64,000 nt of DNA, taken from Verrucomicrobiota bacterium (GTDB taxonomy: Bacteria; Verrucomicrobiota; Verrucomicrobiia; Chthoniobacterales; Terrimicrobiaceae). Positions within the stretch are counted from its first letter, which is position 1. Each line of letters begins with the position of its first letter. The stretch covers positions 1 to 64,000 of the forward strand of contig JAGWWS010000008.1 in assembly GCA_018970255.1 (NCBI GenBank), in the 5' to 3' direction. The notes under the pieces were generated by a model that saw only the letters and a list, made by a program, of their open reading frames with translations, was not told the origin of the DNA and did not search any database. Made by a program: the position numbers and the translations under genes. Below are positions 2,922 to 12,523 of this stretch, in pieces.

Positions 2922-3284
2922 TTAAATTGGCAAAACTCGCACCTTGTTCTTGTTTGCCGCAAGTGTGACGATTGCACCTTTGAGTAATTCTCTTTGGAAT
3001 TGTTTCAGCAGTTGCAAAACTAATAATCCTATGATCTCTGGAGTCGGATCCTCCACTCGGGCTTGAATCACGCTGGGCCCATCGGATTTGGTTTGTGCAA
3101 GCAAAGTGCCGAAATCCAAATCATGCGTGAACACGATCCAGCCACGATCCAAAGCATACGAAAAAATCTCGGAATCTTCAGCATCGCACGCGCCGATCGT
3201 AGTCCAATGGATGGAATCCACCCCATGCCCCTCAAAGAAAATGACCCAATCTGGTGTCAAGCAGGCATCGACCAGGATTTTCAT
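2922..3284 (-). CDS. DUF5615 PIN-like protein, probable toxin
   Basis: A 120-residue protein with the early Asp (MKILVDACL) and the 'THDLDFG' segment typical of DUF5615, a PIN-like nuclease fold. Such proteins are usually paired with a DUF433 protein, as here: the upstream gene overlaps by 4 nt. By family analogy it would be a toxin RNase held in check by the DUF433 partner. Activity is not shown by the sequence alone. Confidence 0.8.
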   Translation of the reverse strand: MKILVDACLTPDWVIFFEGHGVDSIHWTTIGACDAEDSEIFSYALDRGWIVFTHDLDFGTLLAQTKSDGPSVIQARVEDPTPEIIGLLVLQLLKQFQRELLKGAIVTLAANKNKVRVLPI

Positions 3285-3502
3285 GCCGGCTGCAGCTCGG
3301 CATCGAACGCCTCAGACAGCCAACATGCATACGATAGAGCGGCAGAGATATCCTCGTTCTCCAAATACGGGTAAAGTTTCAAAATCTCCTCCCGGGATCG
3401 CCCAGCGGCCACAAGGCCGGCAATCGTTCCCACAGTAATGCGCATTCCTCGGATGCAAGGCTTCCCGCCCATAACCAGAGGGTTTCTTGTAATTCTTTCC
3501 AT
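3281..3502 (-). CDS. DUF433 protein, probable antitoxin
   Basis: A 73-residue protein with the DUF433 signature 'GGKPCIRGMRI' (about 12-22) followed by a helix-turn-helix-like region containing 'SREEILKLYPYL'. This family is the usual partner of DUF5615 proteins and probably binds both toxin and its own promoter. It overlaps the downstream DUF5615 gene by 4 nt. Upstream is A/T-rich spacer. Confidence 0.8.
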   Translation of the reverse strand: MERITRNPLVMGGKPCIRGMRITVGTIAGLVAAGRSREEILKLYPYLENEDISAALSYACWLSEAFDAELQPA

Positions 3503-3650: not shown

Positions 3651-3825
3651 CTTTTCGAAGATTCGCGAGAAATTCATTGTGAGGAATTAGAGGCTCATCA
3701 CGCCTCTCAGCCATAGTAGCCAAATCCTCTATGTCCTCCATGAATCGTATGTAGTCTTCCCAAGGCACGATGACCGCCGTTTTTTGCCCTTCTTCGTTCG
3801 TGAGATATTGCAGAGAACTACTCAT
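3622..3825 (-). CDS. type II antitoxin-like protein
   Basis: A 67-residue acidic protein ('EEGQKTAVIVPWEDYIRFMEDIEDLATMAERRDEP') with the shape of Phd/RelB-type antitoxins: an N-terminal DNA-binding strand-helix part and an acidic toxin-wrapping tail. Its partner toxin (3528-3650) is truncated, so it now stands as an orphan antitoxin. It may still repress its promoter or counter a relative elsewhere in the genome. Confidence 0.65.
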   Translation of the reverse strand: MSSSLQYLTNEEGQKTAVIVPWEDYIRFMEDIEDLATMAERRDEPLIPHNEFLANLRKDGILHDHMA

Positions 3826-3910
3826 ATTTTTTGTCTAAGCCGATTTTATTACCAAGTCAAGCTGTGACCCCGTCATCAGCTAAGCTCTATTCGCCATCCG
3901 CAATCGGCCA

Positions 3911-4594
3911 TCAGGCCCCTCCGCTATCCGTCCTCGGCCGCTGGGCGGCCCTCGCCTTGGGATTTTTTGAAATAGGGAGGCCACTGACTTGCGAGATTGG
4001 CAAGGTGATCAAATCGAAAGGAATTGGCGTTCCATCAACCAGAACAAAATTGGCGGGCCGGGCATCGAAAATGGCGACCTCCAATGATCGACCAACCCAT
4101 GCAAAGCGTTTTCCCGGAAGGGGAATGAATCCATATAGATTCATGAAATCCGCGATCTGTCTTTCATCTGGGAGTTCACCCAAGAGCGGCTCTTGGTGAA
4201 TGAGAATCGAAAAATCGCCGTTTGCCGTTTCCAAAATGCCGGAGACTTTTGTGATGGCTCCGAACAATTTGTTGTGGAGCGACCAGCGATCCAGAAAACG
4301 AACTGTTCTCCCAAAACTGCCGCCATAGGTTGCTTTTCGAACGAGCTGACATTTTGCATCGTTCCAAACAAGATGTTCGAGACCCCCGATGCGGGCCTCT
4401 GCTATCCAGAAGCTTTCGCGGTATCTTCTTCCGGCTCTCTCTGCCCATTCGAGCAGGGCTCCTCGTTGGGCGAGCATTTTTGAGCCTTTTCCACCTGCAT
4501 CCAAAATCGCTCGGATGTCATTGGCGGCTGTTTCCGGATCAATTCCAGTATTCCCTGCGGGCTCGATAAGATTTTTTCCATTTCCATGAATCAT
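3911..4594 (-). CDS. kinase-like protein of the polyvalent-protein type
   Basis: A 227-residue protein. The segment 'VAIFDARPANFVLVDGTPIPFDLI' (about 172-195) looks like the catalytic/metal region (D-x-x-x-x-N ... D) of the small kinase-like domain found in phage and conjugative-element polyvalent proteins. Upstream, 'GRRYRESFWIAEARIGGLEHLVW' and 'LLDRWSLHNKLFG'-like text fits the preceding lobe. It stands alone on the minus strand beside the 42-bp array. An origin in a mobile element is likely; substrate unknown. Confidence 0.5.
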   Translation of the reverse strand: MIHGNGKNLIEPAGNTGIDPETAANDIRAILDAGGKGSKMLAQRGALLEWAERAGRRYRESFWIAEARIGGLEHLVWNDAKCQLVRKATYGGSFGRTVRFLDRWSLHNKLFGAITKVSGILETANGDFSILIHQEPLLGELPDERQIADFMNLYGFIPLPGKRFAWVGRSLEVAIFDARPANFVLVDGTPIPFDLITLPISQVSGLPISKNPKARAAQRPRTDSGGA

Positions 4595-4771
4595 TTAGCT
4601 TTTGAGATTGGCAAAGTCAATGGGGCGCCTCGGGCGCTGTGGCGGACATTTGGAAGAAAATGCTGAAAAGCTGAAATTCTGAAAGGGGACCGGCCTTTGG
4701 CCGATGGCGGATAGCTGAGGACGGAGGGCGGAAAAAGAAAAAGGGCGCGGGGCAAGCATGAACCAGTGAAC

Positions 4772-5251
4772 TGGTGCTCCCTTTTTCGGAACTCGTGTTC
4801 GCTCGGAGCAAACCGCTGTTCTCTTTTTCAGAACTCATGTTCCCTCGGAGCAAACCGCTGTTCTCTTTTTCAGAACCCGTGTTCCCTCGGTGCGAACTGC
4901 TGTTCTCTTTTTCAGAACTCGTGTTCCCTCGGTGCGAACTGCTGTTCTCTTTTTCGGAACTCGTGTTCCCTCGGAGCAAGCCGCTGTTCTCTTTTTCAGA
5001 ACTCGTGTTCCCACGGAGTGAACTGCTGTTCTCTTTTTCTGAACTCATGTTCCCTCGGAGCGAACCGCCGTTCTCTTTTTCAGAACTCGTGTTCCCTCGG
5101 AGCGAACTAATGTTCTCTTTTTGAGAACTCGTGTTCCCTCGGAGCGAGCCGCTGTTCTCTTTTTCGGAACCCATGTTCCGTCGGAGCGAACTGATGTTGC
5201 CTTTTTCAGAACCCGTGTTCCCTCGGAGCAAACTGCTGTTCTCTTTTTGAG
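4772..5251. repeat. 42-bp tandem repeat array, about 11 copies
   Basis: Imperfect head-to-tail units of 42 bp with no spacers. Each carries the dyad 'gttctctttttcagaac' followed by 'tcgtgttccctcggagc'. Because 42 is a multiple of 3, several frames stay open on both strands (e.g. a 14-residue SSEKENSSSLRGNT-like repeat on the minus strand from a TTG near 5231, and RSKPLFSFSELVFP-like on the plus strand), so an open frame alone is not evidence of coding. It ends ~260 bp before the XRE gene. Confidence 0.9.
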
Positions 5252-5287
5252 ACGGCCGGGGCTGAAGTCGAAAAAAAGTGAAAAAAG

Positions 5288-5316
5288 TTGTTGCATGGGT
5301 GGCGGGCGATATTAGA
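5288..5316 (+). promoter_or_regulatory. possible sigma70-type promoter of the XRE-ImmA operon
   Basis: TTGTTG (5288-5293), a 17-bp spacer and ATTAGA (5311-5316) lie upstream of the XRE gene. The -10 match is weak. The following ~195 bp to the chosen ATG at 5511 would be the leader. Confidence 0.3.
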
Positions 5317-5510
5317 TTGCTCGCATGTTAGCGATCAATCCAATATACCGCAGCTTGTGGCCGGTCGGCCTGAGAGGCCCACAGAATGGGCTTGCCAGGG
5401 CGTTTCGGGTTGGCGGGGTCGTGGACATATCACAGATCGGCATGGTGGCGGGGCGGCATCATACGATTTTCAAATCCGCCCTTTTTATTACAGATCCAAA
5501 AAAGAACCCA

Positions 5511-5873
5511 ATGAGAAAAAACACACTCGGGGAATTCATTCGGCAACGCCGGGACGCGCTGGAAATGAGCCAGCGTGAATTGGCAAATTTGCTGAAATTG
5601 AAGGCCTCTTCGCATATCTGCGATGTGGAAAACGGCTACCGCCAACTGGGCGAGGAACACCTCCAAGCCTTGGCCGATGCCCTCCAAGTGAGTCTGGAAG
5701 AAATCCAAGCGCACGACCCGCGGGCTCCTCTCTCGGAAGCGAGGGAGCTCCTGGAGCAGAAACCGGAATACATCCATGCGTTGAACCGCGTGATGCGCCG
5801 GGCTCCGTTGCTCAGCCCGGAGGAATTGATTCGTCGCGTCGAACAACCATCCCACACCGAAAACCCACCATGA
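5511..5873 (+). CDS. XRE-family helix-turn-helix regulator
   Basis: From ATG 5511 the 120-residue product begins 'MRKNTLGEFIRQRRDALEMS', the start of a Cro/C1-type HTH (residues ~5-62). An upstream in-frame ATG at 5325 would add 62 residues unlike any part of this family, so the inner start is preferred. It overlaps the ImmA/IrrE-type gene by 4 nt; this pair is a common regulator-protease unit in mobile elements, in which the peptidase cleaves the repressor or acts as a toxin. It is oppositely oriented to the surrounding wzt remnants. Confidence 0.85.
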   Translation: MRKNTLGEFIRQRRDALEMSQRELANLLKLKASSHICDVENGYRQLGEEHLQALADALQVSLEEIQAHDPRAPLSEARELLEQKPEYIHALNRVMRRAPLLSPEELIRRVEQPSHTENPP

Positions 5874-6628
5874 GAAACTACACCATTCCAAACAGTGACC
5901 TCACCCACAGGGTGAACTATTCGCGCCGGGAGATCGAGCGCATGGCCTCGGACGAGCTGCGACAAGCGAAATGCCTGCCGGAGGAGCCGCAACCGATCGC
6001 TTGGGAAAAATACCTGCGGCGGGCCCACAACAATCTCCAGCCAAGGATCGAGGATCTGCCCGAGGGGGAACTCGGGCATGCGATCTTGGCCGATCCGTTC
6101 AACCCGCAGATCGTGATCGCGCGGGCTGTCTTCGAGGGCTCGATGGCGCGCTACCGGAGCACCTTGGCCCACGAGATCGGCCACTTGGTCCTGCACCGGC
6201 ATTTGTTTTTGGAGCGGGAGCTGCCGGCATACTTGGAAAAACGGCGCCGGGGCGGGCTTCAGCGGGGCTTTGCCTGCGGAGCGGCGGAGATCAATGAAAA
6301 CCCGAGGGCGCCGCTGCACAAGGACGACCCGCTTTTTCATTTGGAATTCCAGGCGAATGTTTTCATGTCGTGCGCCACGGTGCCGGAAAAACTCCTGCGC
6401 GTGCTGCTCGCGCCGCACATTCGCGCGCAGACCCAGCGTGGCGGCGGCAAAATCGAGGGTATCGACGATGCGGTCCGCCCGGCGTGCGTGGACCTGATCG
6501 CCTCGACTTTCGAGGTGAGCCGGACGCTGGCGGGCTACCGCTTGGAGGCCATTTTTCCCAAAAACACTTTCCCGAAAAGCCCCGTCCCAGCCAGCACAGG
6601 TGTGTTGGAAGCCGGATGGTTGTTTTGA
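5870..6628 (+). CDS. ImmA/IrrE-family metallopeptidase
   Basis: A 252-residue protein with the zinc motif HEIGH (about 101-105) and a downstream 'FHLEFQANVFMS' segment that supplies the third ligand in this family. IrrE/ImmA proteins cleave XRE-type repressors, and the directly overlapping upstream gene encodes one. It probably acts in the cytoplasm. The start is fixed by the ATGA overlap with the XRE stop. Confidence 0.88.
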   Translation: MRNYTIPNSDLTHRVNYSRREIERMASDELRQAKCLPEEPQPIAWEKYLRRAHNNLQPRIEDLPEGELGHAILADPFNPQIVIARAVFEGSMARYRSTLAHEIGHLVLHRHLFLERELPAYLEKRRRGGLQRGFACGAAEINENPRAPLHKDDPLFHLEFQANVFMSCATVPEKLLRVLLAPHIRAQTQRGGGKIEGIDDAVRPACVDLIASTFEVSRTLAGYRLEAIFPKNTFPKSPVPASTGVLEAGWLF

Positions 6629-6649: not shown

Positions 6650-7135
6650 ATGTCTAAAACATATACAACGCCCACGCTGACAGATGCCCAGCGCGAGGAA
6701 GTGGCAACCGGCATCAAACAGGTCGAGAAATCCTTGCCGTTTGGCTTGGTTTCTCTGACGTCGATAGAAATCCAACGCCTCGCCAAAGCCGGTCCGCTCT
6801 CGGCCGACTTCGTGATGGCTGGATTGGAACTGGCCATTCGCAACCCCGAGTTGTTGACCGCAAACCGGACCGTGGTGGAATTGGAGAACCAAAAGGAGTT
6901 CATCCGAAATCTCGACAAGGTCAATGGCATGGTCAACGGACTCGCCGAGCGGCTCGATTCCACGCTGAAAGTGGCAAAATCCGATGCCTACCAAACCGCC
7001 TTGACGACCTACGCTTTGGCCAAGCGGAAGAAGGCCTCGGGGATTGTCGCCGACTACGATCGCATGGCCCAACGCTTTAAAAAGCAAGGGGCGCGCAAGA
7101 AAAACACCAAGTCGGAACCTCAAACCCTCGAATAA
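6650..7135 (+). CDS. conserved-looking protein of unknown function, third gene of the XRE-ImmA operon
   Basis: A 161-residue, mostly helical protein with no membrane segment. It has a central 'LPFGLVSLTSIEIQRLAKAG' block and a Lys/Arg-rich C-terminus ('KRKKASG...QGARKKNTK'). Only 21 bp separate it from the peptidase gene and a strong terminator follows, so it belongs to the operon. I do not recognise a characterised family. It could be the target or effector of the regulator-peptidase pair. Confidence 0.7.
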   Translation: MSKTYTTPTLTDAQREEVATGIKQVEKSLPFGLVSLTSIEIQRLAKAGPLSADFVMAGLELAIRNPELLTANRTVVELENQKEFIRNLDKVNGMVNGLAERLDSTLKVAKSDAYQTALTTYALAKRKKASGIVADYDRMAQRFKKQGARKKNTKSEPQTLE

Positions 7136-7220: not shown

Positions 7221-7510
7221 ACCTGCGCTAACCCCGACAGGAAATCTGACGCGATTTTTTTTGTTTCCAAGAAATTTTTTGGGATTTTTTTAAGGCGCGC
7301 CGGGGAGGGCGCGTGCCGGGGGACGGGATGGGTTGGAAGGCGGCGAGAGGCGATGCGGGATCGCCGTCATATTGTGACTGACAAAGAGAATCGTGCGGCC
7401 ATGGCCGGCGACATCCTTCATTTTGCCCAGGCATTTTTTTTGGAACTCCGCGTCGCCCACCGCCAAGACCTCGTCCACGATCAAAATTTGGTTTGCGCTT
7501 ATCCCAAGTC

Positions 7511-7545
7511 GCAAAGCCCTTCGGGCCTGCCTGCGGCAGCCTACC
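7511..7545. repeat. short palindromic element, copy 3 (variant)
   Basis: Contains the core CTGCCTGCGGCAG flanked by 'cccttcggg'; it lies within the insertion before Walker B of wzt copy e. Confidence 0.7.
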
Positions 7546-7652
7546 TCGGCGCGCCCGGCACCTCGGTTCAGGCTCCAAATGCGCCGCGACCGCGAACGCA
7601 AGCCTCACATACATCCCGGAGCTATACCGGTTGATTCGCTCGCTCCCGCTCA

Positions 7653-7682
7653 TCTCACCCTTCGGGCTGCCTGTGGCAGTCT
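7653..7682. repeat. short palindromic element, copy 1
   Basis: A 30-bp unit beginning TCTCACCCTTCGGG with core CTGCCTGTGGCAG. It lies inside wzt copy e and is repeated 49 bp further on (7702). Confidence 0.8.
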
Positions 7683-7701
7683 TTCTCCCGTTGGTCGATT
7701 G

Positions 7702-7731
7702 TCTCACCCTGCGGGCTGCCTGCGGCAGTCT
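7702..7731. repeat. short palindromic element, copy 2
   Basis: A 30-bp unit beginning TCTCACCCTGCGGG with core CTGCCTGCGGCAG; a direct repeat of the element at 7653. Confidence 0.8.
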
Positions 7732-8602
7732 TCCGAGCGGCTGCCCCGCCGCCTGGGTCACCGGCGTGTCGATATACCGCGCACACCCGGAAAACTCGAC
7801 AATCTCATCGAACTTCCGCGCAATCTCGGCCTTCCGCATCCCCAAAATCGCGCCGTTTAGGAAAATGTTCTCGCGCCCCGTCAATTCCGGATGGAACCCC
7901 GTGCCGACCTCCAGCAACGAAGCAATCCGCCCCTTCACCTTGATCTGCCCCGAACTCTGCGTTGTGACCCGCGAAAGAATCTTGAGCAAAGTCGATTTGC
8001 CCGCCCCATTCCGCCCGATGATGCCCAGAACCTCCCCCCTCTTCACCTCGAACGAAACATCCTTGAGCGCGTAGACCCAGTCCGAAGGCGCTTGCGCCTT
8101 CGGCGCGGAGTTATCAGATTTTTTACCGCAGATTTCGCTGATTTTCGCAGATTCGGAATTCAAACCATTTTGGCTCCCAGTAGCGCTGGGGGCATTCGCG
8201 GAGCGAATGGAGGCGGGTTTTTCGGAGTCCATCTGCAAGCCCGCTTGCGAGTGGCCCTCCAAAAACTCGCCAGAATCAGCCCGCTGATTCCCGCCCACGC
8301 CCCTCTCTGTGTGCTCTATGTCCTTTGACTCGGTCGCGCCCACTCCCTCGCCCTTCGGGCCAATCTGCGATTGCTCCATCTCGCATCTGCCCCGATGCTC
8401 GGTTGTGGTTAAACTTCTTTTCTTTGTGCCGCTAACGGACTTCGTCCGATCATTCACCTCCCCGATCTTCAGATACGGATCCTCCTTTCCTCGAACCTTA
8501 TGCCACCACCGATTCACATCATGCGCCAGCGAACCCGTCCCCACCTCGCCCAAACGATACAACTTCGACACCCCCTCCACCCGAATCACAACATCACTCA
8601 TG

Positions 8603-8896
8603 TTATTTCCTAAAAGTTCCAAAGCTGGGCTTGCGGGCGTTGTGCCGCACGACAAGGATTCGAATCGCATCTAATTTTATCCGGAACAGGAAATTGTATG
8701 GAAATCGATTAAGGTTCACCCGGCGAAACCCGCGTTTTTTTTCGCTGAACAGTTGCGGGGAATTGGCAGCGAGGCGCACACAGTTTCGAAACTCCTCGTA
8801 AAATTCGTCGGCAAGATTGGATCCAGCAACTTCCTCATAATACCTCATGATCAAATCCACTTCCGAGAACACTCTCGGATGAAAGACAATATTCAC
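8603..8896 (-). CDS. ParE/RelE-family toxin
   Basis: A 97-residue protein with the ParE pattern: '[18 protein letters not shown]' at the N-terminus, then '[26 protein letters not shown]' at the C-terminus. Members inhibit gyrase or cleave mRNA; which applies cannot be told here. It overlaps the upstream antitoxin gene by 4 nt, and its stop is 1 nt before the start of wzt copy e. Confidence 0.85.
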
Positions 8897-10690: not shown

Positions 10691-10994
10691 CAGCACGCTC
10701 TGAATTGAGCACCGCTGCCAACATGACTGCTCCATGCTCGGTGAATGCAAAAGGGAGAGCTCGTCGTGCCCCGCCCCAACTTGAAATCACAGATTGTGAT
10801 TTCAAGTTTGCAGCCTCCTCGGCTGTAAGTTGAAACATGAACCTGCTCGGAAATCTTGCAGGGTTTCGTTTAACCGCTTGATTCAAAGCTCGTGTTTCAA
10901 CGCCGTAAATCTCGGCAAGGTCCGAAGCGAGCATAACCTTCTCACCTCGAATGAAGTGAATTCGGCTCTGGAGCAGTTGTATTCTTGCGAGATT
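10632..10994 (-). pseudogene. ORF6N gene remnant 1
   Basis: The frame reads '[20 protein letters not shown]', '[20 protein letters not shown]', then '[16 protein letters not shown]' and '[21 protein letters not shown]', the full ORF6N core. It has no ATG at the expected place (ATC where copy 2 has ATG, plus a 1-nt loss) and no C-terminal half after ~10690. Codons after that belong to other sequence. Confidence 0.75.
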
Positions 10995-11036
10995 TTAGTC
11001 AGAAAGTGGTTTGCATCATTTGCTTTATCAAAAGGG

Positions 11037-11126
11037 ATTCACATCAGGCGCGAGCGAACCGGTGCCGACCTCCCCGAGGCGATAGAATTTTGATACATTT
11101 TCAACGCGAATGACGGTGTCGGACAT
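11037..11126 (-). pseudogene. wzt 5' remnant (copy b)
   Basis: From ATG 11126: MSDTVIRVENVSKFYRLGEV and on to a residue run ending DVN, then a stop within two codons. Homology to Wzt ends exactly where ORF6N remnant 1 flank begins. The same break point after 'VN' occurs in copy a. Confidence 0.75.
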
Positions 11127-11132
11127 GATTGG

Positions 11133-11164
11133 AGAGTCGAGAGTCGAGAGTCGAGAGTCGAGGG
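11133..11164. repeat. heptamer simple repeat (gagtcga)
   Basis: Four-plus tandem copies of a 7-bp unit immediately upstream of wzt remnant b; the same unit occupies the same position beside remnant f. The remaining bases to 11273 hold nothing recognised. Confidence 0.75.
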
Positions 11165-11999: not shown

Positions 12000-12163
12000 A
12001 GCTCTATTTTTTCTGCACGAGGCAGGCTTGGGATTTTTTTCCAAAATGTCCTTGGCGGCTTGGAAAACCTCATCCAAATCAAAACAATTGGAATTATCGC
12101 CGTTGCCACGGCGAAACCCAAGCGCACAGACATCCCGGAGCTATACAGGTTGATTCGCTCGCT
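12000..12163 (-). pseudogene. internal wzt remnant (signature to Walker B region)
   Basis: The frame fused to ORF6N remnant 2 continues '[20 protein letters not shown]', matching the Wzt signature region. A diverged, frameshifted Walker B stretch follows (nucleotides aligning to ILIVDEV...). The [11 protein letters not shown] junction is the same site at which copy e carries an insertion. Confidence 0.7.
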
Positions 12164-12310
12164 TGGAAATCTTGCAGGGTTTCGTTTAACCGCTTGATTT
12201 AAAGCTCGTGTTTCAACGCCGTAAATCTCGGCAAGGTCCGAAGCGAGCATAACCTTCTCACCTCATATGAAGTAAATTCGGCTCTGGAGCAGTTGTAATT
12301 CTTGCGACAT
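12164..12310 (-). pseudogene. ORF6N gene remnant 2 with in-frame stop
   Basis: ATG 12310 gives MSQELQLLQSRIYFI, then a TGA in place of the CGA seen in remnant 1, then '[20 protein letters not shown]'. It ends at 'ARFP' where the wzt piece begins. Its upstream flank (to ~12380) is nearly identical to that of remnant 1. Confidence 0.75.
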
Positions 12311-12354
12311 TTTAGTCAGAAAGTGGGTTGCAACATTTGCTTTATCAGAATGGA

Positions 12355-12523
12355 TTCACACCATGCGCCAGCGAACCCGTCCCCACCTTGCCGAGGCGAC
12401 AGGGTTTGTGACCCAGGCAGGAGGGAACCTGCGCGGGAGACTGCCGAAGGTAGCCTGTAGGGTGAGACGCCAAGGGCAAGACGCGAATCAAACATTTTCA
12501 ACGCGAATGACGGTGTCGGACAT
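12355..12523 (-). pseudogene. wzt 5' remnant (copy a) with palindromic element
   Basis: ATG 12523 opens MSDTVIRVENV. About 90 bp with a palindromic element (12438-12467) follow, then '[16 protein letters not shown]' and loss of homology. Of all remnants this is nearest to wzm, so it may mark the original position of wzt. Confidence 0.7.
12438..12467. repeat. short palindromic element, copy 4 (inverted)
   Basis: The complement of the 30-bp unit at 7653, with changes in the core (CTACCTTCGGCAG). It interrupts wzt remnant a. Confidence 0.7.

Follow-up and report, generated by a model that had tools for sequence, protein, structure and literature searches.

What is the 42-bp tandem array that stands beside an operon for an XRE-type regulator and an ImmA-type metallopeptidase, in a stretch of 64,000 nucleotides (the window) from a Verrucomicrobiota bacterium of the family Terrimicrobiaceae? 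A first-pass annotation of the DNA had suggested that the array might bind the regulator, act as a transcription roadblock, be a recombination hot spot or encode a repeat protein. Our analysis indicates that it is probably one member of a family of tandem palindromic repeats that does not code for protein, is restricted to one genus and expands in recombination-prone accessory islets.

Anatomy of the array

The array is real. Tandem Repeats Finder (TRF) places it at 4768-5252 with a period of 42 bp, 11.5 copies (11 units had been counted before), 86% matches, no indels and a score of 704. It is the sole 42-bp array that TRF found in the window, and its last half-unit ends at about 5253. Its parts are the following.

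4768 to 5253, plus strand: tandem array, 42-bp period, 11.5 copies or 23 half-units of 21 bp
4776 to 4796, plus strand: first A-type half-unit, degenerate, GCTCCCTTTTTCGGAACTCGT
4797 to 4838, plus strand: first complete 42-bp unit, B half GTTCGCTCGGAGCAAAC plus CGCT, A half GTTCTCTTTTTCAGAAC plus TCAT
5217 to 5253, plus strand: last unit, truncated, ending GTTCTCTTTTTGAGAC

When the sequence is written in 21-bp steps, the 42-mer resolves into a dimer of two diverged 21-bp half-units. Each half-unit consists of a 17-bp quasi-palindrome, GT(T)-N11-(A)AC, and a 4-bp linker; the linkers alternate between YGCT and TCGT, and the consensus is GTTCCCTCGGAGCGAAC plus YGCT for the B half-unit and GTTCTCTTTTTCAGAAC plus TCGT for the A half-unit. 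The linkers are themselves the centres of AAC-N4-GTT dyads. With this build of quasi-palindrome plus linker, RAC-N4-GTY dyads thus recur every 21 bp, that is, every two helical turns and on one face of the DNA. GTTCT-N7-AGAAC, which the first-pass annotation had assigned to every unit, has an exact match in no more than 6 of the 12 A-type half-units (4818, 4860, 4902, 4986, 5070 and 5112). A second dyad per 42-bp unit, GTTC-N9-GAAC around TCGGA, had been missed; the true sub-period is therefore 21 bp, which gives the 23 half-units.

Genome-wide, the pattern GAACN4GTTCN9GAACN4GTTC has 10 forward matches, all within the window array, and the reversed control pattern has none. Taken together with the TRF score and with folding z-scores of -5.6 (plus strand) and -5.0 (minus strand) against shuffles, these matches exclude a chance origin of the array. 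Elsewhere in the window there are a 239-bp direct duplication of ORF6N-like sequence (10845-11082 and 12161-12399, 92% identical) and short 7-bp tandem repeats at 2756-2793 and 11132-11162 (GAGGGTC, GAGAGTC).

Coding and RNA readings

The array had been described as open on both strands. We found all three plus-strand frames to be interrupted; of the minus-strand frames, one has a stop in the consensus unit, one has three stops and one is open throughout. One open reading frame spans the array:

4617 to 5231, minus strand: 204-aa ORF through the array with a TTG start inside it, judged spurious (no Pfam match, no synonymous excess)

This ORF is what speaks for a protein of 14-residue repeats. 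However, in its frame 8 differences are synonymous (10.5 expected) and 24 non-synonymous (20.4 expected), so synonymous differences are not in excess and the frame bears no sign of purifying selection. Indeed, differences between units show a clear synonymous excess in no frame of the window array. Pfam is silent on the ORF and its start codon falls within the repeats. With neither a coding signature nor a domain to support it, a repeat protein is extremely unlikely.

The folding z-scores would also suit a function of the repeats at the RNA level, with hairpins that terminate or impede transcription or make the mRNA more stable. However, the two strands fold equally well, as expected of any palindrome array, and covariation is weak: there are few paired changes, and by most measures they do not exceed those of shuffled sequences. 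Terminator-like hits number 3 against 2.4 expected, and an Rfam search gave no match. We therefore regard a role in RNA as very unlikely.

The neighbouring XRE-ImmA operon

ImmR-ImmA and DdrO-IrrE are pairs of a repressor and a protease, and the operon next to the array is like them by domain content. The relevant features are:

5315 to 5340, no strand: dyad GATTGCTCGC-N6-GCGATCAATC, some 170 bp before XRE, by inference a better candidate for the operator
5511 to 5873, plus strand: XRE-type regulator (HTH_3, Pfam)
5870 to 6628, plus strand: ImmA/IrrE-type metallopeptidase (Peptidase_M78, Pfam)
6650 to 7135, plus strand: 161-aa protein, third gene of the operon, no Pfam domain

The distance from the array to the XRE start at 5511 is 257 bp, in agreement with the earlier figure of about 260 bp. 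This position, adjacent to and upstream of XRE, would suit a set of operator sites, or of decoy sites, for the XRE repressor, with ImmA inactivating the repressor by cleavage. The best evidence for such a role comes from a related genome, G007 (G, C and L numbers are our labels for genomes, contigs and loci), in which a two-unit and a 13-unit array share a contig with an XRE-ImmA operon of 50% identity, upstream of it and oriented relative to it as in the window; a chance position of these arrays within 2-3 kb of the operon is not very likely. However, in G007 the short array lies about 0.9 kb and the long array about 1.9 kb from the XRE start, and six array-bearing genomes (G003, G004, G006, G010, G012 and G014) have no detectable ImmA homologue. 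Moreover, both XRE promoter regions that we checked possess dyads of their own: one comparable to the dyad at 5315-5340 lies upstream of the G007 XRE, and GCATGNNAGCGA is common to both upstream regions. Both loci are also toxin-antitoxin-rich islets, where many things co-occur. Given these islets, the six genomes without detectable ImmA and the upstream dyads sharing GCATGNNAGCGA, we place the likely operator at 5315-5340, and binding of XRE to the array, as operator or decoy, appears improbable.

Five genomes have an ImmA homologue. Repeats lie near the homologous operon of G007, none lies near the G002 and G020 homologues by a genome-wide search, and in G001 the contig starts immediately ahead of ImmA. 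Across the genus, the array is not tied to the XRE-ImmA operon. No XRE-ImmA homologue was found in the named genome collection. A gene similar to that for the 161-aa protein follows ImmA in G007, and by eye a protein near an array in G006 resembles it too (loci besides the window: L096, 3283-3768; L107, 4412-4900).

Spread of the repeat family and likeness to known repeats

A search with the two-linked-dyad pattern found only one array in the genome of the window. Relatives were searched by DNA searches and with a covariance model built from 27 units, which revealed related arrays or remnants of 1-13 units in 7 of the 15 other genomes of the genus (the six named above and G007), at 1 to 4 loci per genome. 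The four other genera of the family gave no convincing match, the single weak hit, in G020, lying in coding-like sequence. Among 84,980 species genomes, the exact pattern forms arrays only in the Terrimicrobiaceae MAG M30B24, and three other single matches were taken as chance. Viral contigs held no match to the exact pattern, and plasmid and phage collections no match to the repeat. The family is apparently undescribed, non-coding and confined to one genus. It falls into two subfamilies: the window array and G003:C120 have TTTTT/TCGGA halves, and the other large arrays have AAATC/TCGGA halves with the linkers exchanged.

Further tandem repeats were noticed at these loci. At L019 (M30B24), an unrelated 21-bp array of TCCTCGTTCAGAGCTCCGTCG (3825-4132, 14.7 copies) lies next to the 42-bp array, and a 177-bp repeat occupies 424-1785 (7.7 copies, 94% matches). 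L016 likewise has a second, unrelated 21-bp array of the TCCTCGTTCAGAGCTCCGTCG type at about 1895-2060.

Extragenic palindromes of the REP/BIME/REPIN kind comprise GTAG and CGTC superfamilies (PMC3733652, PMC2817692, PMC3116915), and GTAG REPs have been reported in Verrucomicrobia, in Opitutus terrae (PMC3733652). Our family resembles them in being short, palindromic, extragenic, dispersed and sometimes clustered, but differs in its strict 21/42-bp head-to-tail tandem arrangement and its few loci per genome. The terminal GTAG/CGTC tag is absent, the half-units having TCGT/YGCT linkers and GTT...AAC arms instead, and the copy number is low, with one array in the window's own genome and 1-4 loci in relatives. 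Genes for Y1_Tnp tyrosine transposases occur in 15 of 16 genomes, and no significant repeat match was found within about 1.5 kb of 30 of these genes. As the repeats lack the tags, the copy number and a place beside tyrosine transposases, we rejected their assignment to the REP/RAYT system.

Bacterial minisatellites, or VNTRs, consist of head-to-tail units in variable number. The present family is like them in its tandem units and in the differing unit number at homologous places, here in the genomes of different species, but its unit combines two quasi-palindromes and has a conserved dyad core, and the family recurs at several loci and in several species. Iteron and partition-site arrays of plasmids have repeats of dyad character spaced by about 21 bp; our family shares the spacing and the dyads but not a replication or partition gene or a plasmid context. 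A plasmid iteron was rejected, with no plasmid match and no replication-initiator Pfam domain in 10 flanking proteins scanned, as was a CRISPR array, since the units abut without spacers and no CRISPR feature was present. A LexA box (GAAC-N4-GTTC) was dropped, since other arrays do not conserve its outer G and C. We class the repeats as a new family within a known kind, that of extragenic palindromic repeats both tandem and dispersed.

Unit variation, amplification and insertion

Units within the window array have a similarity of 0.87, against 0.58-0.65 to units of the other large arrays. Those other arrays show 0.88-0.97 within and 0.86-0.90 between arrays, so that homogenisation is clear only for the window array, units elsewhere being hardly more alike within arrays than between them. 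Across the family, 80 of 87 junctions retain the RAC-N4-GTY core, and the spacing of 21 bp does not vary; the end bases GT and AC are almost invariant (GT-N13-AC in 86 of 92 half-units) and the central bases vary. Such conservation of core and spacing is stricter than neutral drift of a repeat needs, although recent amplification may account for it.

The pattern of free central bases between conserved, evenly spaced ends would also be expected of phased binding sites, two helical turns apart, for a putative dimeric DNA-binding protein, comparable to iterons or partition sites and serving DNA organisation, segregation or the movement of neighbouring cassettes. However, the repeats are patchy in the genus, plasmid and phage collections are without a match, in G004 the repeat sits on a 1.0-Mb contig, and no partner gene recurs beside the arrays. 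Binding sites are thus a rather unlikely explanation of the family, but its constant spacing and conserved core are consistent with a putative binding protein and leave room for one.

Unit number differs at homologous places. Elements with a common 3' flank have one unit in G006:C2 and in G010:C41, and about 8 and about 11 units at two G004 loci, one of which has an IS beside the array. Between genomes of different species, the number of units at homologous elements thus ranges from 1 to about 11. Arrays of the family also lie in strain-variable insertions. At a DUF1844 locus examined in 15 genomes, extra DNA with repeats is present only in G007 and G003, and in most genomes the neighbouring gene follows closely; at a TMEM14-like locus, extra DNA is present in G007 and G003 and absent from G002, G015, G012 and G004. 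At both of these loci the array lies within an insertion absent from related genomes. Of the four original suggestions, a recombination hot spot is the best supported, by the differences in unit number, the insertions at variable loci and the duplicated gene segments that flank the window array; recombination itself is deduced here from sequence comparison rather than from reads or breakpoints.

Genes around the arrays

On its other side, the window array is followed by these features:

3911 to 4594, minus strand: Kinase-PolyVal-like protein, below the Pfam cut-off
2922 to 3502, minus strand: DUF433/DUF5615 (PIN-like) pair of toxin-antitoxin type (Pfam); in G007 a pair of the same families lies between arrays

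The array and the XRE-ImmA operon lie between two direct partial copies of a gene for an ABC-transporter ATP-binding protein (482-1930 and 7228-8670, minus strand), which share blocks of 62-334 bp at 93-98% identity. The second copy is broken up by short inserts. Array neighbours in relatives include PIN toxins, AbiEi, DUF433/DUF5615, a PDDEXK_2 nuclease (PD-(D/E)XK), an AAA_14/DUF4143 ATPase and a DDE transposase, as well as AraC, sulfatase and CobW genes; no single partner gene recurs. Of 15 array loci, about 7 have a toxin-antitoxin, nuclease or IS gene nearby, compared with 2 of the 15 control sites (BrnT, Transposase_31). The enrichment is suggestive only, because the gene classes were set by eye after looking. 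A leader shared upstream of some elements in G007, G003, G014 and G010, as part of a larger mobile element, was considered and dropped; it is not seen in the window.

At several loci, a single gene or a gene pair stands between elements. Elements in the same orientation enclose a nuclease gene (G014:C24), the DUF433/DUF5615 pair (G007:C147) and ATPase genes (G007:C339 and G010:C41). This arrangement, and the fact that 5 of 16 genomes (G001, G006, G009, G010 and G014; L193-L201) have integron-integrase homologues scoring above the NCBIfam cut-off, would fit attC-like sites at which an integron mobilises cassettes of one gene each. However, no repeat occurs in the sequence around six integrase loci, and the orientation of element relative to gene is not constant. 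RYYYAAC/GTTRRRY boxes were not found either, although this crude scan is a weak test, since it found none beside the integrases and so had no working positive control. We hold attC-like sites to be highly improbable. In G006, pyrH and frr are close to the integrase gene, and no cassettes could be recognised there.

The direct orientation of bracketing elements also allows a more specific form of the binding-site idea, in which the RAC-N4-GTY repeats would be helically phased sites for a putative genus-specific protein that moves or organises small accessory cassettes (toxin-antitoxin pairs, Rpn-like nucleases, ATPases), with the tandem palindromes as their boundaries. We offer this as a speculation that is very unlikely to hold.

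Origin and meaning of the repeats

For the preferred reading, a repeat family expanding in accessory islets, we propose the following course. The starting point would have been a 21-bp segment made up of the quasi-palindrome GT(T)-N11-(A)AC and its 4-bp linker. This segment would have been duplicated and have diverged into the 42-bp dimer, which would then have been amplified in tandem. Slippage or unequal recombination, favoured by hairpins, may alter the number of units. The repeats would persist as stretches of homology in islets of toxin-antitoxin, nuclease and ATPase genes, and would not serve as operators of the XRE-ImmA operon.

These results add an apparently undescribed palindromic repeat family to a poorly studied verrucomicrobial family. 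They also caution that an array of dyads beside an XRE gene should not be read as an operator by default. In these genomes, the repeats mark variable insertion sites with toxin-antitoxin and nuclease genes.
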